A DNA stretch of 57,732 nucleotides from assembly GCF_030684185.1 (NCBI RefSeq), contig NZ_JAUXOY010000006.1:1-57732 (forward strand), read 5' to 3'. The translations under genes and the position numbers were made by a program. This DNA is from Methylotenera sp. (lineage in GTDB: Bacteria > Pseudomonadota > Gammaproteobacteria > Burkholderiales > Methylophilaceae). The first letter of the stretch is position 1. Each line of letters begins with the position of its first letter. The notes under the pieces were generated by a model. It saw only the letters and a list, made by a program, of their open reading frames with translations, had not been told where the DNA came from and made no database searches. Positions 181 to 57,203 of the stretch are shown here, piece by piece.

Positions 181-1566
181 TTATGCCGTTAGTGCATCTA
201 GACAATCATTAAATACTCGTATTAAAAGGTTTAAGTCCGCATTGTTTGTAGCAGGGCACACCAGCATCATATTATGAAACGGCGTGAGCAGTACGCCGCG
301 GTTTAGCAAGTAAAGATGAATTGCACTTTCCAGCGTTTCGTTTTGTGCATCGCGTGCTTCTTGTGCGTTTTTTGGTGTTTCTGCGCAAAATTGCAGTTCC
401 AGGCGCGCACCAAGGCGGGTGATATTCCACAGTAGTTTATGCGAATTGATTGATGCAGTAAGCAGCCGCTCAAGGTCTTCAGCCATTGTCAGCATGTGCG
501 TGTAAGCTTCTGCTGTTGCTACTTCTGTTAAGGTGGCATGAATGGCTGCCAGTGTCATCATGTTGCCTGATAAGGTTGTGCCAATGCCAGAGTGACCTGA
601 TGGTGCGCTATCTTTAGCGATTTTCATGCGAGCCGCCATTTCTGTACTGAATCCGTACGCTGAGGCGGGTAGGCCACCTGCAATCGGTTTGCCTATGACC
701 AAAAAGTCTGGTGTGACATGATTGGCTTTTGCCCAACCGCCTCGCCCAGTGGATATTGTATGAGTTTCATCTAATACCAGCAGGCTGTCGTATTTTTTCG
801 TGAGTTCACGCAAGCTTTTAATAAAGCCGTCTTTAGGTAATACCATACCGCAATTAGTAAGTGCGGGTTCTGTCAGCACGCAGGCAATATTGCCTTTGGC
901 TAATTCGCGTTCAACGGCTTCACTATCGTTAAATGGCACAGCCACAGTATGCAGGCCTAGATCGTAAACCTGGCCAAGTAAGCTGGCACGGTTGGCGGTT
1001 TTGCCTTCAATTGCGTCTGCCATGGTGTCATCACTTATAACCATGTCTACCATGGTGTCATCAATAGTCCCGTGGTAACAGCCATCAAACACCAGCAATT
1101 TTTGACGCCCGGTTACAGCCCGTGCCCAGCGCAACACAAACCTGTTTGCATCGGTAGCTGTGGTAGCAAGTTGCCAATAGGGCAGGCCAAAATGCTCTGC
1201 CAAAGCTTCGCCAACATTAGGTGCTAGCGTGGAAGGTAGCATGGTGGTATAGCCACTGTTAGCTTGAGCGGCTATCGCTTTGGCTACTGGTAGCGGGCTG
1301 TGTCCGAACATCGCACCCGTATCGCCCAGGCAAAAATCCGTATAATCAATGTCATCCGCACAGCTGAAGTGCGCGCCCTGCGCTTGCTGCACAAAGAGTG
1401 GAACAGGTGTGCCCCAATCATTCATCCAATGCATTGGTACACCATACAAAAAGTGTTGATTAGCCTTGGCTGAAAATGCAATTGAACGTGGGTGTAGCTT
1501 TAGATAATTTGTGCGTTCATAAGCAAGTATCTCTATAGCATTTTTGACTATATTGGCATTTAACAT
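181..1566 (-). CDS. class III PLP aminotransferase (HemL/acetylornithine-type fold)
   Basis: A 461-residue fold-type I, class III aminotransferase. The PLP aspartate lies in LVLDETHT (about D266) and the Schiff-base lysine in IGKPIAGG (about K293); the YHG motif of the cofactor loop is near residues 164-166. The sequence resembles glutamate-1-semialdehyde aminomutase-like transaminases more than the SpuC or GabT enzymes downstream. It is divergent from agmatinase and shares a 190-bp control region with it, so a role in polyamine or guanidino-compound metabolism is likely, but its substrate cannot be read from sequence. No clear Shine-Dalgarno precedes the ATG. Confidence 0.85.
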   Translation of the reverse strand: MLNANIVKNAIEILAYERTNYLKLHPRSIAFSAKANQHFLYGVPMHWMNDWGTPVPLFVQQAQGAHFSCADDIDYTDFCLGDTGAMFGHSPLPVAKAIAAQANSGYTTMLPSTLAPNVGEALAEHFGLPYWQLATTATDANRFVLRWARAVTGRQKLLVFDGCYHGTIDDTMVDMVISDDTMADAIEGKTANRASLLGQVYDLGLHTVAVPFNDSEAVERELAKGNIACVLTEPALTNCGMVLPKDGFIKSLRELTKKYDSLLVLDETHTISTGRGGWAKANHVTPDFLVIGKPIAGGLPASAYGFSTEMAARMKIAKDSAPSGHSGIGTTLSGNMMTLAAIHATLTEVATAEAYTHMLTMAEDLERLLTASINSHKLLWNITRLGARLELQFCAETPKNAQEARDAQNETLESAIHLYLLNRGVLLTPFHNMMLVCPATNNADLNLLIRVFNDCLDALTA

Positions 1567-4093: not shown

Positions 4094-5683
4094 TTAATTT
4101 CTTAATGCCTCCTGAATAACTTCAGCCAATTTGCCTCCGTATTGGGTAATATGCTCTGTTGCTGCATAGGCATAACCAATAATCAGACCTTTCTCGCATT
4201 TTTCACCCATGCAGTAATGTGAAAGTGGATATACCCGCAGCCCATGTTCAGATGCCATTTCAGTGACACGAACGTCATCGCATGCTTGGTCAAATTCCAC
4301 CACTAAATGTAAGCCGGAGTCTACTGTTGAAAGGCGTGCACCTACATTCGCTATTGAGGCAAGTGCTGCTTGTAACAAGCGTCTCCGCTCGCCATAAATT
4401 TGGCGCAACCTTCTGATATGGCTTGCGAAATGACCTTCTTCAATAAAATCTGCTAGTGCTGCCTGAATAACTACTTGCCCAGGCCGTTGTAGTTCGTACA
4501 ATCCATGCTTGAAACTTTCTATTAAATTAGGCGGTACGACCAAATATCCCAACCTAATACCCGGGTACATGACTTTTGAAAATGTGCCTAAATAAAGCAC
4601 GCGACCATTTTGATCCATACCTTGTAATGATGAGATTGGGCGGCCTTCAAACCTAAACTCGCTGTCGTAATCATCTTCAATAATCCACGCACCAACATTT
4701 TGGGCGTAATCCAGTAATAAGCGTCTGCGACCATAACTCATGACCATGCCCTTGGGGTATTGGTGTGAAGGTGTGGTGTAAATCAAGCGCGGAGTTGTTC
4801 GGTAGTCTATTGTTGTAGGCGCCAACCCTTCTTTGTCTACATCTACAGGGTGCAGTTGCAGACCATTAACCTCCAGCACGCGCCGTGCCGCCCAATAACC
4901 AGGGTTTTCCACCCAAGCGCAATCGCCATGGTCAGTCAATAAACGCGCACATAAATCAATTGATTGTTGGGTTCCGGAAGTAATCAGCACCTGGTCAAAA
5001 GTGAGGTTGACTGCGCGCGATACCCGCAAATAATCAGCAATGGCTTTGCGTAAAGGTAAATAGCCGCCATCGTGGCTGGAGTCGAGTAATGCCGGGTTTG
5101 GTGTACGCCACTGTCGATTAAGTAATCGCCGCCATAGCGCATATGGAAATCCTGCATAATCATCTTCACCCGGTGTAAATGGCTGTACTTCGTTATGAAT
5201 TCTGCTATTAACTCTGTCTGAATTATTTTGCTTTGCTGATTGATTTTGTCTGCTGGTTGATGCACACGCAGCTAACCCGCGTTTAGAAAGTTGTAGTGAG
5301 TCTTCAGATTTTATGCGGGTGTTTGATACGTTTGAATCAAGCAACACTTTATCAGTGATGTTGTCAGAGGTATTGCTGCCGGCAATGTCCTTTGAAAAGT
5401 TATCATGTTGATTATAGGTAACATAGGTACCGCTACCAGTTTGAGATGCGACATAGCCTTCATCAAGCAGTTGTTCAAAAGCTGCCAAAACAGTGTTACG
5501 TGATACGGTCAAGTCTTCAGCTAATCGTCGAGTAGATGGAAGTCGTGCCCCTGCGGGCAATACCCGGCTTGTAATAGCGCGCCGAATAACTTCGTAAATG
5601 CGCCTGTGGTTGGGCATGCGAGCGGGAAAGTTACTTTGGTTAAGTTGCGTTAATAACCATTCAGATAGCACAAGCTGTTTCAT
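4094..5683 (-). CDS. MocR/GabR-type transcriptional regulator (GntR HTH fused to aminotransferase domain)
   Basis: A 529-residue chimera. Residues 25-90 form a GntR-type winged helix (RLPSTRRLAEDL, then SRNTVLAAFEQL). A low-complexity Ser/Asn linker spans about residues 90-165. The rest is a fold-type I aminotransferase domain with IIEDDYDSEF (about D338) and the PLP lysine in GTFSKVMYPG (about K370). MocR proteins sense PLP or an amine-PLP aldimine and usually control an adjacent catabolic operon. It is divergent from puuD, with paired direct repeats in the shared promoter region, so it is probably the local regulator of the polyamine/GABA genes. GabR, PuuR-like and PdxR assignments cannot be told apart from sequence alone. 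Confidence 0.9.
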   Translation of the reverse strand: MKQLVLSEWLLTQLNQSNFPARMPNHRRIYEVIRRAITSRVLPAGARLPSTRRLAEDLTVSRNTVLAAFEQLLDEGYVASQTGSGTYVTYNQHDNFSKDIAGSNTSDNITDKVLLDSNVSNTRIKSEDSLQLSKRGLAACASTSRQNQSAKQNNSDRVNSRIHNEVQPFTPGEDDYAGFPYALWRRLLNRQWRTPNPALLDSSHDGGYLPLRKAIADYLRVSRAVNLTFDQVLITSGTQQSIDLCARLLTDHGDCAWVENPGYWAARRVLEVNGLQLHPVDVDKEGLAPTTIDYRTTPRLIYTTPSHQYPKGMVMSYGRRRLLLDYAQNVGAWIIEDDYDSEFRFEGRPISSLQGMDQNGRVLYLGTFSKVMYPGIRLGYLVVPPNLIESFKHGLYELQRPGQVVIQAALADFIEEGHFASHIRRLRQIYGERRRLLQAALASIANVGARLSTVDSGLHLVVEFDQACDDVRVTEMASEHGLRVYPLSHYCMGEKCEKGLIIGYAYAATEHITQYGGKLAEVIQEALRN

Positions 5684-5741
5684 GGAGTAGAATATTCCTG
5701 ACTTACATAGCAGCCGAGTTGCTGGATATGTTAACTTAAAG

Positions 5742-5771
5742 TGGTTCTATCTAAATAATCTAAATGGTTCT
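5742..5771. promoter_or_regulatory. direct-repeat operator, likely MocR site
   Basis: TGGTTCT occurs at 5742-5748 and again at 5765-5771 in direct orientation, 23 bp apart start to start, within the longer near-repeats AAGTGGTTCTA and AAATGGTTCTT. It lies between the divergent MocR gene and puuD. Direct repeats about two helical turns apart are what dimeric MocR/GabR proteins bind, and AAAGTGG-type boxes are known for PdxR relatives. Assignment to this regulator is inference from position. Confidence 0.5.
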
Positions 5772-5854
5772 TGTAGCATTACCAATTTTAGGAATAGTAT
5801 ACTCACCAATGAGGCAATGCAATGATTTGTAATCCTTATAAAACTTAATGTGAA

Positions 5855-6628
5855 ATGATGACAACAAAACGTAAACCAGTGGTTTTGATTCCTGCAGATG
5901 TTAAGCAGCTTGGCGAGCATCCTTTTCATGTAGCTGGTCATAAATACATTATGGCTGTGGCGGAGGCCGCTGGCGCGCTGCCTTTAGTTGTTCCTGCCAT
6001 TAGCGATTTGTTGGATATTGACGTCTTATTAGCCATGGCAGATGGTATTTTGCTCACAGGTGCTGTTTCAAATGTGCATCCTTCACATTTCGGTCAAACT
6101 GTACATAACCCTTCATTACCGCTAGACCCGGCGCGCGATGCGCTTACTTTAAAACTTGTGCAAGCGGCGATTAATGCTGAAGTGCCGCTTTTGGCTATTT
6201 GCCGGGGGTTTCAGGAAATCAACGTTGCTTTTGGTGGTAGCCTGCATCAGGCAGTGCATGAAGTATCTGGTTTAAATGATCATAGAGAAGCTAAAGAATC
6301 TACTCTCGATATTCAATATGGCGAATCACACCTAATAGATCTAGTGGCTAGCGGTCAGCTTGCTCAAATAGTAGGCGCCAAGCAAATGATGGTGAATTCG
6401 ATACATGGACAAGGCATTGATAAACTCGGTGCAGGTCTGGTAGCAGAAGCGTTTGCTTCTGATGGTTTAGTTGAGGCCTTGCGTGTTGAACATGCAAAGG
6501 CTTTTACCCTAGGTGTGCAATGGCATCCTGAGTGGAAGGTCATGGAAAACCCTCAGTATTTGGCGATTTTTAAAGCGTTTGGCGATGCTTGCAGATTAAG
6601 AATGAGAAGGCACGAGCCACCAGATTAG
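5855..6628 (+). CDS. puuD: gamma-glutamyl-gamma-aminobutyrate hydrolase
   Basis: A 257-residue class I glutamine amidotransferase-like hydrolase that releases GABA and glutamate from gamma-glutamyl-GABA, the last step of the Puu route. The catalytic triad is complete: C116 in LAICRGFQEIN, with H224 and E226 in GVQWHPEW. CRG in place of the CLG of biosynthetic amidotransferases is the PuuD/SpuA signature. Two consecutive ATG codons are possible starts. It is the first gene of the long co-directional run to gabT, divergent from the MocR regulator. Confidence 0.88.
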   Translation: MMTTKRKPVVLIPADVKQLGEHPFHVAGHKYIMAVAEAAGALPLVVPAISDLLDIDVLLAMADGILLTGAVSNVHPSHFGQTVHNPSLPLDPARDALTLKLVQAAINAEVPLLAICRGFQEINVAFGGSLHQAVHEVSGLNDHREAKESTLDIQYGESHLIDLVASGQLAQIVGAKQMMVNSIHGQGIDKLGAGLVAEAFASDGLVEALRVEHAKAFTLGVQWHPEWKVMENPQYLAIFKAFGDACRLRMRRHEPPD

Positions 6629-6703
6629 CAATTGTGCGATACATAAAAACTCAAAAAAAATACATCAATAAGTTGTTAATAAAAGCAAGCCAGGAGAATA
6701 AAA

Positions 6704-8071
6704 GTGACAGAAAAAGTAAATATGAACCATGTGGATATGGATAAGTGGCTGACTGAAAACAACATCACCGAGATTGAATGTTTAGTGCCAGATTTAACTG
6801 GTGTGGCGCGAGGCAAAATTTTACCGCGAGAAAAGTTTTCAACAGACCGGGCAATGCGTTTGCCGGAAGCCGTGTTTGGTATGACTGTGACTGGCGAGTC
6901 GCCCGAGGGGCATGAAGGGTATGACCGGGTATTTGGTTTTACCGATAAAGACATGGTGCTCATTCCGGACCCGACAACATTACGAGTGGTGCCTTGGGCG
7001 GTAGACCCTACAGCACAGGTCATTATGGATTGTGTAGACCATCAAGGTAAACCTGTTGATTTTGCACCGAGAAATGTATTGCGCCGCGTGACTAGTTTGT
7101 ACAAAGATTTGGGCTGGACGCCTATCGTTGCGCCTGAGCTGGAATTTTACTTACTGGAACGTAATACTGATCCGGATATTGCTTTAAGCCCGCCTGTCGG
7201 ACGTAGCGGGCGCAAAGAAACGAGTCGTCAACTTTACAGTATTGATGCGGTGAACGAGTTTGATCCGCTCTTTGAAGATATCTATGATTACTGCGATTTA
7301 ATGGGATTAGAGCTGGATACGCTGATTCATGAGTTTGGCGCAGGGCAAATGGAAATTAACTTTTTGCACGATGAGCCGATGTTGTTAGCGGATAAAACTT
7401 TTTTCTTCAAACGTACCTTGCGAGAGGTGGCGATGCGCCATGGCATGTATGCCACGTTTATGGCAAAACCGATGCAGAACGAGCCGGGCTCTGCCATGCA
7501 TATTCATCAAAGTGTGGTGGATGCTCAGGGACAAAATATTTTCAGTAAGCCGGATGGTTCAGCTTCGCCAATCTTTTTTCATTACATTGCGGGTTTGCAA
7601 AAATACCTGCCAGCCGCCATGGCATTGCTCGCGCCTTATGTGAATTCATACCGCCGTATTGTGAGAAATGGTGCTGCACCTATCAATATTGAATGGGGTT
7701 ATGACAACCGCACTGTGGGGATTCGCGTGCCTATATCTGAACCTAGTGCCCGTCGTGTTGAAAATCGCGTGGTCGGCGCAGACGCAAACCCATACCTTGC
7801 TATGGCTGTCACATTAGCTTGCGGTTATTTAGGAATTGTTGAGAAATTAAAACCAACAGATGTGACCACAGGCAGTGCATACGCTTCTGATTACCAGCTG
7901 CCGCGCGGCTTGTCAGAAGCTTTGCGTGAATTAGAGAATGCAAAAGCTTTACATCAGGTTTTAGGCAAAGATTTTATTGACGTGTATTTGGCAGTAAAAG
8001 ATGCAGAACATGATGAATTTATGCGCGTAATCAGCCCCTGGGAACGTGAACACTTGCTAATGCATGTATAA
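6704..8071 (+). CDS. puuA: gamma-glutamylputrescine synthetase (glutamine synthetase family)
   Basis: A 455-residue glutamine-synthetase-fold ligase that joins glutamate to putrescine using ATP. GS-type motifs include APELEFYLLE, GAGQMEINF, KPMQNEPGSAMHIHQS and NRTVGIRVP. GTG at 6704 is chosen as start because AGGAG at 6692-6696 is seven bases upstream; ATG at 6722 is the alternative. It sits between PuuD and the SpuC aminotransferase. Related PuuA/GlnA3-type enzymes can act on other amines such as ethanolamine or spermidine, but the flanking PuuB, PuuC and PuuD make putrescine most likely. Confidence 0.85.
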   Translation: MTEKVNMNHVDMDKWLTENNITEIECLVPDLTGVARGKILPREKFSTDRAMRLPEAVFGMTVTGESPEGHEGYDRVFGFTDKDMVLIPDPTTLRVVPWAVDPTAQVIMDCVDHQGKPVDFAPRNVLRRVTSLYKDLGWTPIVAPELEFYLLERNTDPDIALSPPVGRSGRKETSRQLYSIDAVNEFDPLFEDIYDYCDLMGLELDTLIHEFGAGQMEINFLHDEPMLLADKTFFFKRTLREVAMRHGMYATFMAKPMQNEPGSAMHIHQSVVDAQGQNIFSKPDGSASPIFFHYIAGLQKYLPAAMALLAPYVNSYRRIVRNGAAPINIEWGYDNRTVGIRVPISEPSARRVENRVVGADANPYLAMAVTLACGYLGIVEKLKPTDVTTGSAYASDYQLPRGLSEALRELENAKALHQVLGKDFIDVYLAVKDAEHDEFMRVISPWEREHLLMHV

Positions 8072-45676: not shown

Positions 45677-46693
45677 TTAAGGTGCCGCTATCGCGTGGAT
45701 AATGCCAGTTAACATATCGCGAGCGATTTCTGTACGACGCATTTCATACACAGGACTAAATACCAAGCGATGTGCAACAGTTGCGTGAAAGACATCATGA
45801 ATATCTTCCGGCAACACGGCGGTGCGCTCATTTAGCCACGCATTTACACGGGCTGCACGCAATACCATCGCCATACCGCGCGGACTAGCACCAGATAATA
45901 CTAATCGGTTCATATCAACGCCTGATACTTTTACGCCAAAATCTGTCGGCGTTTTAGTTGCGCGCCACAAATTAAGCACGTAGCTACGCAATGTTGGGCT
46001 CGCAGAAATACTATTTTGCAGCAAACTGGCAAAGCTGTTTAATTGATCAAATTGCAATATATTTTCAGGTACATTTGAAACCAGCTTATCTGCATCATGA
46101 AAACGGGTGTCAAATACCAATGACTCCATGATGCTATCGTCATTTGGTACAACAATCGGAATTTCCATCATGAAACGATCCCGTGCGGCAGAGGGTATGT
46201 CGAACGTTTCTTCTTTTTCAACTTGGTTACGGTCAGCAAATACCAGCATGTGTGGGAAGTGGTATTCTCTGTTAAACGCCGTTAGTGTGCGTTCCGCCAT
46301 CACGCGCAACAACAATGAATGAACTTGCGGGCGGGCACGGTTAATTTCGTTAAAGAAAAATACTGATAAATTTTCACCAGACATCAATATCGGGCCTGGG
46401 CTTACATGCGGTTTACCATCTTCACCCAAATACGTGTGATAGATTAAATCGTTGGGCATCAAGTCGATGGTGCCTTCGATTCGTTGGTAACCACCGCCGA
46501 TACCACGGGTAAATGCGCGTAGCAGGGTTGTTTTACCAACGCCCACATCACCTTCAAGCAATACATGGCCACGGGCAAAGATGGATGTGGTAATCAGGCG
46601 TACAGGGATATGTTGACCTACAATGACCTTGTTAACTTCAGACTCTAAGGTAAGTGCATGATTGCGCCAGTCGGCTAATTGTGTGTCGCTCAT
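45677..46693 (-). CDS. mxaR: MxaR, MoxR-family AAA+ ATPase
   Basis: A 338-residue MoxR ATPase, first gene of the cluster. Walker A LLEGDVGVGKTTLLRAF, Walker B region FFFNEINRARPQ (Asn where MoxR proteins usually have Asp), sensor I LVFADRNQVEKEETFDIP, and the arginine finger region AARDRFMMEI. MoxR ATPases work as chaperones for insertion of metal into target enzymes. AGGA lies about nine bases upstream of the ATG. A 67-bp gap separates it from mxaS. Confidence 0.88.
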   Translation of the reverse strand: MSDTQLADWRNHALTLESEVNKVIVGQHIPVRLITTSIFARGHVLLEGDVGVGKTTLLRAFTRGIGGGYQRIEGTIDLMPNDLIYHTYLGEDGKPHVSPGPILMSGENLSVFFFNEINRARPQVHSLLLRVMAERTLTAFNREYHFPHMLVFADRNQVEKEETFDIPSAARDRFMMEIPIVVPNDDSIMESLVFDTRFHDADKLVSNVPENILQFDQLNSFASLLQNSISASPTLRSYVLNLWRATKTPTDFGVKVSGVDMNRLVLSGASPRGMAMVLRAARVNAWLNERTAVLPEDIHDVFHATVAHRLVFSPVYEMRRTEIARDMLTGIIHAIAAP

Positions 46694-46804: not shown

Positions 46805-46973
46805 AAATGCTAATTGCCTGTCTGTAAATGCTAATATAAATGAAATTTTTAAGCGTATATACAGATTTGTATACCCCCGTTAAGTATTTTAAAACTTTTT
46901 TTAAAAATATAGCAGAAGAGGACTAAGCTGACTTGCCTAGCGCACGAATTAACAAGTTATTTATCAGCAGATT

Positions 46974-47041
46974 AAAAAAGACCCGCAACACCGTTAAAGG
47001 GGCTGCGGGTTAAGGGAGGGCGAAAATTTGGAGATCCGCAA
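46974..47041 (-). ncRNA. candidate sigma-54-dependent small RNA or attenuated mxaR leader
   Basis: Predicted from a perfect sigma-54 promoter (47067-47052) and an intrinsic terminator. The transcript would start near 47041 and run leftwards about 67 nt. Its 5' half is unpaired and contains UCUCC and CCCUCCC, complementary to Shine-Dalgarno sequences. Its 3' half folds as ACCCGCA/TGCGGGT (47010-47004 with 46987-46981, minus strand) and ends in a run of six T (46979-46974). No other gene on this strand between the promoter and the terminator could own it. Alternatively the terminator is a leader attenuator for mxaRSACKL, about 280 bp downstream. Confidence 0.5.
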
Positions 47042-47051
47042 ATTATATTTG

Positions 47052-47067
47052 TGCAAATCTTATGCCA
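47052..47067 (-). promoter_or_regulatory. sigma-54 promoter upstream of candidate small RNA
   Basis: On the minus strand TGGCATAAGATTTGCA matches the consensus TGGCAYR-N4-TTGCW at every defined position, with the GG and GC doublets at the required spacing. The predicted start is near 47041. It reads toward the terminator at 46974 and then mxaR. Confidence 0.65.
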
Positions 47068-47119
47068 ATTAAAAATTTAAATTAATTCAATTGCTTAAAA
47101 TTTAGAGGCTCTAGATTGG

Positions 47120-47135
47120 TGGTTGTATACAACCA
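47120..47135. promoter_or_regulatory. 16-bp perfect palindrome, possible enhancer or fab operator
   Basis: TGGTTGTATACAACCA is a perfect palindrome centred about 87 bp upstream of the predicted sigma-54 start, a normal distance for an enhancer-binding-protein site. It is also about 130 bp before fabA and could be the operator of a fatty-acid regulator. A second dyad, CAGCC-AAA-GGCTG, follows at 47149-47161. Confidence 0.5.
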
Positions 47136-47264
47136 AGCTGGTTAATTACAGCCAAAGGCTGCAAATTATTCTCTATAAAAAATTGATAAAGCGTGAATAG
47201 GGCTTTCGTAAAATCGAATTTAAAGCGAAAATAGCATCCTGGATATCACTATTAAAATAAAATC

Positions 47265-47798
47265 ATGTCAAATCAATCTAGTATTGCTAAACAAAACAGT
47301 TTTACAAAAGAAGAGTTACTGAAGTGCGGTAGGGGCGAGATGTTTGGGGAAGGTAATGCCCAACTGCCTTTACCTCCGATGCTAATGTTTGATCGCATTG
47401 TTTCTATTACTGAAGATGGCGGCAAGTACGGTAATGGCCAAATCATTGCAGAGCTTGATATTAGGCCTGATTTATGGTTTTTCGAGTGTCATTTTACGGG
47501 CGACCCTGTGATGCCTGGTTGTTTGGGATTAGATGCCATGTGGCAATTAGTCGGGTTTTATTTGGGCTGGAAGGGTGGTCCAGGACGTGGGCGTGCACTG
47601 GGTGCTGGTGAAGTTAAGTTTACCGGCCAGGTGTTGCCAACGGCAAAAATGGCGACTTACACGATTGATTTAAAACGCGTAATTATGCGTAAATTAGTGA
47701 TGGGATTGGCTGATGCTACTATGACTTTAGATGGCCGTGAAATCTATGTGGCGCAAGACTTGCGCGTTGGCTTGTTTACTAGAACAGACAATTTTTAA
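47265..47798 (+). CDS. fabA: 3-hydroxydecanoyl-ACP dehydratase/isomerase
   Basis: A 177-residue hot-dog enzyme that dehydrates and isomerises C10 intermediates, the branch point to unsaturated fatty acids. The catalytic histidine lies in [18 protein letters not shown] and the aspartate in [11 protein letters not shown]. Length is normal. It is paired with fabB, the FabA/FabB route being the usual anaerobic unsaturated pathway. No Shine-Dalgarno is evident before the ATG. Confidence 0.95.
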
Positions 47799-55223: not shown

Positions 55224-55625
55224 TTAATTGGCAGGTGCTGGTTCAGCAACTGGAGCGCTAGCGGGCGCCGCGCTTAAACTTTTGCTAGCTTTGTAACTGG
55301 CAAACTCTTCAGCGCTGATATTGCCGTCTTTATTTGCGTCTGTTGCATCAAAGTAGAGTGATAAATCTTTATCTTTAACAGCTTCTTTTAATGAGATTTT
55401 AGTATTGCCATTGGTATCCAGCTTTTTGAAAGCTGCATCAACTGGTAATTTAGCGGTTGAATCTATCGCTTTAATCTCCCCGGTTTTAACTTCTGCAATT
55501 TTGTTTTCATTGCCAATAGCGTCTTTAAACGCGGCTTTGTTGTCAGCCAAAGCAGCTGAACTAAGCCCAGTTAGAAAAAATGCGGCGATAACATTGGTTG
55601 TGATTAGATTCAAATTAAATTTCAT
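55224..55625 (-). CDS. secreted EF-hand protein with two compact calcium-type loops
   Basis: A 133-residue exported protein: signal peptide of about 27 residues (ending SSAALA), then two EF-hand loops, DTNGNTKISLKE and DANKDGNISAEE, and an Ala/Pro/Ser tail. Only 14 residues separate the loops, against about 24 in canonical pairs. Both loops have acidic or Asn ligands at positions 1, 3 and 5 and Glu at 12. It lacks the position-2 prolines of lanmodulin. A perfect sigma-54 promoter and two GlrR-type sites precede it; a strong terminator follows, so it is a monocistronic regulated gene. Ligand, calcium or other, is not known. Confidence 0.8.
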   Translation of the reverse strand: MKFNLNLITTNVIAAFFLTGLSSAALADNKAAFKDAIGNENKIAEVKTGEIKAIDSTAKLPVDAAFKKLDTNGNTKISLKEAVKDKDLSLYFDATDANKDGNISAEEFASYKASKSLSAAPASAPVAEPAPAN

Positions 55626-55670: not shown

Positions 55671-55686
55671 AGCAATTGCTGTGCCA
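55671..55686 (-). promoter_or_regulatory. sigma-54 promoter of the EF-hand gene
   Basis: TGGCACAGCAATTGCT on the minus strand matches TGGCAYR-N4-TTGCW at every position. The predicted start near 55660 leaves a leader of about 35 nt with AGGAG before the ATG. Confidence 0.75.
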
Positions 55687-55748: not shown

Positions 55749-55766
55749 TGTCGCTTATAAGCGACG
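55749..55766. promoter_or_regulatory. GlrR/QseF-type upstream activating site 1
   Basis: TGTC (55749-55752), ten bases, then GACG (55763-55766); the inner GTCGCTTATAAGCGAC is a perfect 16-bp palindrome. Centre is about 98 bp upstream of the predicted sigma-54 start. The TGTC-N10-GACA pattern is the GlrR/QseF site known from enterobacterial glmY and glmZ; one base differs here. Confidence 0.65.
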
Positions 55767-55810: not shown

Positions 55811-55834
55811 TTTTGTCGTGACTATGCGACAAAA
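55811..55834. promoter_or_regulatory. GlrR/QseF-type upstream activating site 2
   Basis: TGTC (55814-55817), ten bases, GACA (55828-55831), an exact match to TGTC-N10-GACA, inside the larger inverted repeat TTTTGTCG/CGACAAAA (55811-55818, 55827-55834). Centre is about 163 bp upstream of the sigma-54 start and 65 bp from site 1. It ends 11 bases before the response-regulator stop codon. Confidence 0.68.
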
Positions 55835-55844
55835 GATTCTGATG

Positions 55845-57203
55845 TTATTCAGTGAGGTGAATAGCTTTAAAAAGACTGGGATTAATATGGTGACGTTGCA
55901 GTATCTTATAAAATTCGGTACGGTTGCGCCCCGCAATTCTAGCCGCTTGCGTCACGTTGCCTTGCGTGGCTTTAAGTAAGTTAATTAAATATTGTTGTTC
56001 AAAGTTTTTGCGTGCAGCATCAAATGAAATGATGCTGGAAATGTTATCCTGCAAGGCTTTTTGTATTAATTTACCCGTGATAATTGGCGTGGTAGAAAGC
56101 ACTACGACTTGTTCAACAATGTTTTGTAGTTGCCGTACATTGCCAGGCCATGGAGCTGCCAGCATTAATTCAAGCGCATCTGGTGCAAATCCATTTATTT
56201 TCCTATGATGTTTTTTAGTTAATTTTTCTAAAAAATAATTCGCTAACAACGGAATGTCTTCACGCCTGGCAGTGAGTGATGGTATTTCTAAACTGACAAC
56301 ATTGATGCGGTAGTACAAATCTTCTCGAAAGCGATTCGCCTGCATTTCTTCAATTAGATTTTTGTGAGTTGCACAAATTACCCGTACATCAATCGCAATG
56401 TCTGCGGTAGAGCCTACGGGACGGATGACACGCTCTTGCAAGGCACGTAGCAGCTTGGCTTGAATGGCGAGTGGCATATCGCCAATTTCGTCCAGAAACA
56501 GTGTTCCGCCATGTGCATTTTTTATAAGACCCTGATGGTCACGCACAGCGCCTGTAAATGCACCTTTGCTATGTCCGAACAATTCAGACTCAAGTAGTGC
56601 TTCAGGTAAAGCTGCACAATTAATGGCGACAAATGGTTTTTCTCTACGAGGGCTGGCAAGGTGTATCGCTTGGGCAAGTAATTCTTTGCCGGTACCACTT
56701 TCGCCCTGAACTAGTACACTGGCATCCGATGCAGCGACTAATTTCGCCTGACTGAGCAAGCTTTGCATTTGTTGGCTGTCACAAATGATAGCAGAGCTCC
56801 AAATGTCATCGTTATGCTGTGGGCTATTAGAATGACTAGCGGTAATTTTTAGTGCTGTAGCCACTTGTTGTAATAAAACTTTGCTGTCAAATGGCTTGGT
56901 TAAAAAGCTAAAAACCCCTTGCTGAGTCGCATACACGGCCTCTGGAATTGAGCCGTGCGCTGTAAGTAAAATAAAGGGCACAGTAGGGTCGAGTTGGTGT
57001 ATTGCTTCGAAAAGTGAGAAACCGTCCATTTCTGGCATACGTAAATCGCTAATGACGAGAGCTGCAGGCCGCATGTTAAATAAGCTGATAGCTTCCTGTG
57101 CAGAGTTGGCTATAGTTACTTGATAGTCACTTGCTGTCAGACGCATTTCTAGCAGTTTTAGAATGTCTGCATCGTCATCTACAACTAATATATGCTTTTT
57201 CAT
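55845..57203 (-). CDS. glrR: sigma-54-dependent response regulator, GlrR/QseF type
   Basis: A 452-residue NtrC-family activator. Receiver domain at 1-120 with the phospho-acceptor D53 in LVISDLRMPEMDG; AAA+ domain with Walker A GESGTGKE and the sigma-54 contact loop SKGAFTGAV; Walker B TLFLDEIGDMP; C-terminal Fis-type HTH (GNVTQAARIAGRNRTEFYKIL). The RNRTEFYKILQRH helix and a qseG-like gene immediately upstream identify it as GlrR/QseF. Its partner kinase would be beyond the window. Likely direct target: the EF-hand gene downstream on the same strand. Confidence 0.87.
   Translation of the reverse strand: MKKHILVVDDDADILKLLEMRLTASDYQVTIANSAQEAISLFNMRPAALVISDLRMPEMDGFSLFEAIHQLDPTVPFILLTAHGSIPEAVYATQQGVFSFLTKPFDSKVLLQQVATALKITASHSNSPQHNDDIWSSAIICDSQQMQSLLSQAKLVAASDASVLVQGESGTGKELLAQAIHLASPRREKPFVAINCAALPEALLESELFGHSKGAFTGAVRDHQGLIKNAHGGTLFLDEIGDMPLAIQAKLLRALQERVIRPVGSTADIAIDVRVICATHKNLIEEMQANRFREDLYYRINVVSLEIPSLTARREDIPLLANYFLEKLTKKHHRKINGFAPDALELMLAAPWPGNVRQLQNIVEQVVVLSTTPIITGKLIQKALQDNISSIISFDAARKNFEQQYLINLLKATQGNVTQAARIAGRNRTEFYKILQRHHINPSLFKAIHLTE

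Follow-up and report, generated by a model that had tools for sequence, protein, structure and literature searches.

The intergenic stretch between fabA and a moxR/mxaR-type gene of Methylotenera sp. (contig NZ_JAUXOY010000006.1; the whole 57,732 nucleotides analysed here are called the window) contains what we read, with a probability of roughly 0.7, as an autonomous small-RNA gene, transcribed from an activator-dependent sigma-54 promoter, whose RNA would restrain translation of xoxF, the lanthanide-dependent methanol dehydrogenase gene. From comparison of related genomes we regard it as very probable that the stretch truly encodes a regulatory RNA of ~70 nt, kept with its promoter in several genera of methanol users; xoxF as its true target is somewhat favoured by the complementarity described below.

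Promoter, fold and terminator

The preliminary description of this DNA had pointed to a perfect sigma-54 match on the minus strand, a stem followed by six T, a perfect 16-bp palindrome centred ~87 bp upstream of the predicted start, and moxR ~280 bp past the T run on the same strand, and all four are present where it had placed them (Table 1). Taken by itself, the promoter match does not exceed chance in a window of this size: 7 matches with at most one mismatch (2 of them perfect) occur in it vs an expectation of 5.2, and 7 are reached in 28 of 100 shuffles. It is fold and conservation, not the promoter match, that raise the locus above chance. The segment folds with z = -4.0 (0 of 200 shuffles are equally good) into a 5' hairpin that displays AUCUCCAA in the loop, followed by a linker rich in pyrimidines and by the terminator, and the covariance model introduced below matches positions 46975-47045. 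An unpaired part carrying both CCCUCCC and UCUCC had been proposed; CCCUCCC does lie mostly in the unpaired linker, whereas UCUCC is found inside the loop of the 5' hairpin. A generic terminator scan of the window did not list the terminator of the RNA gene, because that scan permits only loops of 3-8.

Table 1. Features of the predicted small-RNA gene and its flanking genes, in window coordinates
Feature	Position	Strand	Remarks
sigma-54 -24/-12 promoter TGGCATAAGATTTGCA	47052..47067	-	0 mismatches to TGGCAYR-N4-TTGCW
Transcription start, predicted	near 47041	-	from the promoter
Predicted small RNA, ~68 nt	46974..47041	-	5' end inferred from promoter, 3' end inferred from T run
5' hairpin GCGGA...UUCGC displaying the loop	47020..47039	-	stem varies among species
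Conserved seed AUCUCCAAA	47027..47035	-	complement of UUUGGAGAU at xoxF ribosome-binding site
Unpaired pyrimidine-rich linker CCUCCCUUA	47011..47019	-	from the fold; linkers of aligned members likewise pyrimidine-rich
Intrinsic terminator	46974..47010	-	9-bp stem and two inner pairs, then C and six T
Terminator stem arms ACCCGCAGC / GTTGCGGGT	47010-47002 / 46989-46981	-	six T at 46979-46974
Perfect 16-bp palindrome TGGTTGTATACAACCA	47120..47135		candidate enhancer for sigma-54 activator; no strand
Imperfect palindrome GGCTGTAATTAACC	47140..47153	-	distal one of tandem pair, 19-bp period
moxR/mxaR-type AAA ATPase gene, downstream neighbour	45677..46693	-	AAA_3, AAA_lid_2; judged outside unit
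fabA, divergent upstream neighbour	47265..47798	+	TIGR01749, 310 bits, cut-off 238; outside unit

Conservation and covariation

A covariance model was built from 7 aligned copies from different genomes, covering the RNA only and excluding the promoter, and it matches 28 of 52 genomes of the window's genus (g1) at E <= 1e-5, the 7 model-building genomes included. The end of a sigma-54 promoter with GG-N10-GC lies 17-21 nt before UCUCC in 27 of these 28 genus loci; L088 is a strong model match without promoter. Shuffled upstream sequence of 22 loci yields such a promoter in 12 of 4400 trials, a chance of 0.003 per locus. Of four further loci, L104 and L105, both of other genera, have the promoter, and L102 and L103, which match the model at E > 0.001, lack it. 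Among 40 loci taken from part of the weaker matches of a family-wide search, promoter and UCUCC occur together in 21, lying in genera g9, g19 and g22, and do not in 19. An exact pattern scan of genome contigs returned at least 116 stretches, mostly chance occurrences judging by their organisms, and 8 of the 116 listed match the model at E < 0.001; among the named records that match are Methylotenera oryzisoli La3113, a Methylophilus MAG and Methylotenera MAGs. One locus, L110, has promoter and loop without a model match. The window's genome holds a single copy, its other model match being a terminator read on the opposite strand. The preliminary description had looked to a covariance search of this kind across the Methylophilaceae and held that lack of conservation of promoter and stem in relatives would speak against a small-RNA gene; the ~70-nt segment was found with its sigma-54 promoter, promoter and stem are conserved, and the proposal is supported by the fold, by conservation and by a promoter kept without being part of the model. 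A small genome (G127) has an apparently decayed copy, L380, in which palindrome and terminator remain and promoter and loop are gone; the activator gene is still present in this genome.

Over the 30 aligned members, 13 of 17 pairs have changes on both sides, 87.5% of cells pair and 0 of 500 shuffles reach any of five measures, counts which lean towards the structure because the alignment behind them had been fitted to the model. Slid registers score far lower. Both helices covary and the loop hardly changes: of the terminator's 11 pairs in the family model, 8 have been altered on both sides, and the 5' stem takes various forms (GCGA/UCGC, AGCA/UGCU and others) around a UCUCC that is identical in 30 of 30 rows. 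The base preceding UCUCC is U in L087 and L105, and the bases after it vary slightly. Genomes G042 and G052 also have loops reading UUCUCC.

Neighbourhoods of the gene

The 29 loci with promoter and loop adjoin glyA in 19 cases (2 of them in other genera), fabA in 5 and map/glnD in 3. On the far side of the fabA-side loci moxR is found in 4 of 5, the contig ending in the fifth; at L090 the contig includes just the far neighbour known from the glyA group, and L077 is flanked by other genes. Pfam searches on one example of each neighbour recovered serine hydroxymethyltransferase, DUF3307, a retropepsin-like protease and peptidase M24 (map), and only a nucleotidyltransferase domain in the glnD piece. 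The RNA gene, occurring in three kinds of neighbourhood, therefore appears to be autonomous and relocated and not a moxR leader. When 150 genomes of the family were searched at the DNA level, each flank, that of fabA and that of moxR, proved to be conserved on its own, and the middle was present only in some members of the genus; of 20 fabA-moxR regions read, the unit is contained in 4 and missing from 16, of which 14 are 180-291 bp long.

These observations bear on two other readings of the locus. In one, raised as an alternative in the preliminary description, the sigma-54 transcript begins the moxR (mxaRSACKL) mRNA and the terminator is a conditional attenuator, as the position of moxR on the same strand in the window and downstream in 4 of the 29 loci would allow. 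It is made very improbable by the conservation of the promoter-terminator unit where moxR is elsewhere (a check that had been proposed at the outset, and which the glyA and map/glnD loci answer), by the 16 fabA-moxR regions without the unit, and by a GTATACARATCTGTNTAC-like element just before moxR in 20 of 20 regions, unit present or absent; we rejected it on the differing neighbourhoods. In the other reading there is only a terminator with a chance promoter and no functional RNA. The sigma-54 count within chance would suit it, as would the tendency of weak model matches that have neither promoter nor loop to resemble bare terminators (L102, L103, and 8 of 20 and 11 of 20 weaker-match loci), but in four genera the promoter, the loop and the helices have been kept together at changing locations, and we find this reading scarcely credible.

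Two further elements flank the unit in the window. The GTATACARATCTGTNTAC-like element, at 46855-46874 between terminator and moxR, is probably moxR's own operator, and an inverted repeat GCTTTCGT...AGCGAAAATAGC at 47202-47235, upstream of fabA and recognisable in 19 of the 20 regions across genera, is a candidate fabA operator.

Enhancer sites and candidate activators

Of 27 genus loci, 24 have palindromes of the form GGYT-N6-ARCC, which are candidate activator sites, at 66-108 bp upstream of the promoter. The same holds for 2 of 7 other loci (L155, L119), or 26 of 34 overall, where shuffles of all 34 give at most 2. In the window they form a tandem of GGTTGTATACAACC-type palindromes, the perfect one at -67 and the imperfect one at -86 from the promoter, of a type also seen at a TonB-receptor promoter. 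Elsewhere in the same genome the window's exact palindrome stands in tandem before the sigma-54 promoter of a TonB receptor gene, downstream of which lies an NtrC-type activator gene. A second tandem of it precedes a further sigma-54 promoter on contig C10, and versions with one mismatch precede a PepSY gene (C10) and a beta-propeller gene (C7). Of 17 regions read, 5 had no recognisable receptor, and in all 12 genomes in which the receptor was recognised GGYT-N6-ARCC accompanies a sigma-54-type site, defined by at most 3 mismatches. The activator gene of the TonB receptor was found in 19 of 20 genomes searched, and 7 full-domain sigma-54 activators were found. Family matches of the receptor are weak, the best being PqqU at 98 bits vs a cut-off of 1200.

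Scored with a matrix derived from the receptor sites alone, 24 of 27 genus loci reach p <= 0.01 by mononucleotide shuffles, and 0 of the 14 loci from other genera do. NtrC-type sites have the consensus TGCACC-N5-GGTGCA, and an idealised site of this kind is matched at p <= 0.005 in 13 of the 14 other-genera loci (the fourteenth has only 35 nt of upstream sequence) and also in L110 and L119, which lie outside the kinship grouping. In the genus, an NtrC-like match at p <= 0.01 is present in 10 of 27 loci, nine of them of the glyA group, and the site in the window gives p = 0.025. An NtrC-like site within 4 mismatches is found in 9 of 9 further positives, a count made without shuffle control. A single activator for all members was rejected, given sites that differ between genera and, within the genus, between glyA-side copies and the receptor: many glyA-side copies are of the type GGYTGAwwTCARCC, and the TonB-receptor promoter is mostly GGYTGTwwACARCC. 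Because these inner bases differ, it is uncertain that the same activator protein serves the glyA group. We read the two kinds of site as a change of activator: NtrC would be ancestral, and the lineage of the window would have taken on sites like those at the receptor promoter. NtrC, acting in nitrogen limitation, is the likeliest activator in the family's other genera.

GlrR was ruled out as activator of the RNA gene, there being no TGTC-N10-GACA site with up to one mismatch in 47068-47250, the 180 bp upstream of its promoter; the nearest such matches are at 46108-46125 and 47773-47790. The window does encode a GlrR/QseF-like activator (55845-57203, minus strand; 613 bits to PRK15115, below the cut-off of 763). 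A second perfect sigma-54 promoter (55671-55686, minus strand) reads into a small EF-hand protein (55224-55625, minus strand) and has GlrR-type sites upstream, exact at 55814-55831 and with one change at 55749-55766. The GlrR-like protein would fit this promoter instead. By itself, TGTC-N10-GACA occurs no more often in the window than chance would give (12 vs 15 expected).

Several related arrangements were seen beyond the window. In L106 (6367-10525) a TonB receptor gene is followed by an NtrC-type response-regulator gene, the activator gene at 6367-7797, and the ORFs of the 16-kb stretch include no recognisable histidine kinase. In L108 a gene read as a YVTN-type beta-propeller (4731-5801) has tandem palindromes and an imperfect sigma-54 match upstream. 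On contig C10 of genome G000 (L002, ~1240-1555, minus strand) a second putative sigma-54 transcript, TGGCACGTTTGTAGCA, has the same tandem palindromes and sits between the PepSY gene and a putative MocR-type regulator gene, near the second xoxF; it is possibly another small RNA.

xoxF as candidate target

The suggestion that the RNA is able to cover ribosome-binding sites has gained a specific candidate in xoxF. The pattern TTGGAGAT was searched near ATG in ten genomes and occurs at 8 to 16 places per genome vs 3 to 10 for the reversed pattern; of the 13 places in the window's genome, 2 belong to xoxF genes and one to the PepSY gene. One set of 20 places combined 11 of these 13 with 9 of the 111 elsewhere, the latter picked for a recurring spacer, and 8 of the 20 are xoxF, a count that is biased because the places were chosen; the PepSY place was read separately, making 12 of the 13. 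The XoxF protein best matches lanthanide methanol dehydrogenases of known structure (6dam, 6oc5). At least 8 (8-12) contiguous nucleotides complementary to the loop are present in 33 of 34 xoxF genes of 26 genomes that have the RNA and a close, readable xoxF, and the remaining gene (G154) has 7 contiguous nucleotides and a G-U pair. This count leaves out distant paralogues (L337, L353-L356, L359, L360), fragments (L349, L357, L358, L361), two loci of G060, which has the RNA without promoter (L335, L311), one of G333 (L348), those of genomes without the RNA (L310, L315, L320, L321, L327, L333), and 12 further places that were not read. The RNA of G333 is a divergent variant (L117) whose pairing with the xoxF of that genome is poor. 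Among the distant paralogues read, three have UUUGGGGAU and one each has UUGGAGAU, UUUGAGGAU and UUUGGAGGU; paralogue L360 and fragment L349 show none of these. No xoxF was found at the search threshold in 3 of 16 genomes.

Loop and xoxF site have changed together in two lineages, these being the only two independent co-changes. Where the base before UCUCC is A (24 genomes), 30 of 31 xoxF genes have GGAGAU; where it is U (G006, and G029 of another genus), 3 of 3 have GGAGAA, and in G006 both xoxF copies have changed while rplN has kept GGAGAU. In G153 there is one uncompensated change between loop and site. When RNAs were permuted among genomes, 16 of 2000 trials reached the observed complementarity sum, with relatedness uncorrected. 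Two groups of xoxF with otherwise different leaders have CUUUGGAGAU in common.

A real sigma-54 small RNA with some other object, acting broadly on UUGGAGA-type ribosome-binding sites, on other mRNAs or on a protein, is a less probable reading to which we nevertheless give considerable weight. The seed is a generic anti-Shine-Dalgarno sequence, and its complement is present at other genes, UUGGAGAU also occurring at genes read as rplN and rpmB in some genomes. Duplex energy, discarded as a target ranking, is unspecific and does not place xoxF first (17th of 132 starts, the PepSY gene 39th, the second xoxF outside the ranking). The chief difficulty for xoxF as target is that the site is kept, in 6 of 6 xoxF genes read, by five genomes with no model match at E <= 1e-5 (G102, G131, G143, G127, G146), and the site may for this reason persist on other grounds. 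Speaking against such broader action are the co-changes in two lineages, with rplN of G006 unchanged, and the site common to xoxF groups whose leaders otherwise differ.

Proposed mechanism and significance

With xoxF as the target, an enhancer-binding protein at the tandem palindromes, ~85-105 bp upstream of the start, would open the promoter, RNA polymerase with sigma-54 would start at the predicted position, and the ~68-nt RNA would fold as described and pair through its loop, with or without Hfq, with the ribosome-binding site of xoxF mRNAs (UUUGGAGAU...AUG). Because of its position over the ribosome-binding site this pairing should block translation, and less lanthanide-type methanol dehydrogenase would be made when the activator is on. 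With NtrC as activator, methanol oxidation would be slowed under nitrogen limitation; in the window's lineage the gene has moved between fabA and moxR and has sites of the TonB-receptor-promoter type. If this is true, xoxF has a small-RNA layer of control that ties methanol oxidation to nitrogen status in the family, through NtrC, and to the TonB-receptor regulon in the window's lineage. The gene would then also be a natural case of a small-RNA gene that has changed address and activator and kept its loop.

The product of the C10 PepSY gene, which lies near the second xoxF, has two PepSY stretches and resembles LanP (lanpepsy), given as lanthanide-binding in two papers (PMC12482762, PMC11845868). 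The sites common to the TonB receptor and this two-PepSY protein suggest that in the window's lineage the RNA is linked to the metal or cofactor of XoxF. One could go further and suppose that an ancestral NtrC-controlled, xoxF-restraining RNA was captured by the activator beside the TonB receptor, so that metal (or PQQ) uptake and the saving of XoxF are switched together, a scheme that we consider speculative and rather unlikely. RNA-mediated sparing is known for iron from RyhB, in which uptake and saving are joint in the manner proposed here.

Comparison with known small RNAs

Rfam 15 gives 0 matches at gathering score in the window, and E-value searches return matches only below cut-off. Two families score weakly at the same place as the RNA gene, RF02278 (Betaproteobacteria toxic sRNA; 10.5 bits in the window and 23.6 in L104 vs a gathering score of 50) and RF00519 suhB/mmgR (16.5 vs 41), and they resemble it in being short and anti-Shine-Dalgarno, with CUCC motifs before a terminator. 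Membership in either was rejected on these scores and on the promoter: the RF02278 cut-off is exceeded in 1 of 143 genomes, and of the 30 RF02278-like loci fetched, none of the 23 examined upstream has a well-matching sigma-54 site at an equivalent distance (at L239 such a site lies 55-70 bp upstream, and L235 has only a six-mismatch match). In the open-licence literature, outside which most subscription journals fall, no such RNA appears in the titles and abstract openings of the papers listed on small RNAs and lanthanide/xoxF methanol dehydrogenase, nor among the best matches listed on Methylotenera sigma-54 small RNAs or on Methylophilaceae sRNA/Hfq. The predicted target and the change of activator are worth testing.

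GlmY, the Qrr RNAs and CrcZ/CrcY are small RNAs whose sigma-54 promoters respond to an activator acting from a distance, a feature that the predicted RNA would share. The Qrr RNAs, under sigma-54 control, differ in their activator, LuxO, and GlmY differs in acting through RapZ and in its activator QseF/GlrR, whose site is absent from the 180 bp upstream of the promoter in the window. CrcZ/CrcY are under control of CbrB and RpoN (PMC8395346), CrcZ being an Hfq decoy with another activator. According to the same paper, NrsZ of Pseudomonas is controlled by NtrB/C and RpoN (PMC8395346); it is an intergenic small-RNA gene transcribed with RpoN and NtrC, as is proposed for members of the present family, but its RNA is ~226 nt, is processed and activates rhlA, whereas that of the window would be ~70 nt with two hairpins. 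GlnZ of Enterobacteriaceae, described as an NtrC/RpoN-dependent small RNA repressing sucA (PMC9731577), has the NtrC and sigma-54 control and the repression of a central carbon enzyme that are proposed for the RNA family found here. It differs in being cut from the glnA 3' UTR, where the window's RNA would be made from a promoter of its own, and in its target. By analogy, the predicted RNA would work like NrsZ, GlnZ and the other sigma-54 small RNAs, with a loop that resembles those of anti-Shine-Dalgarno RNAs.
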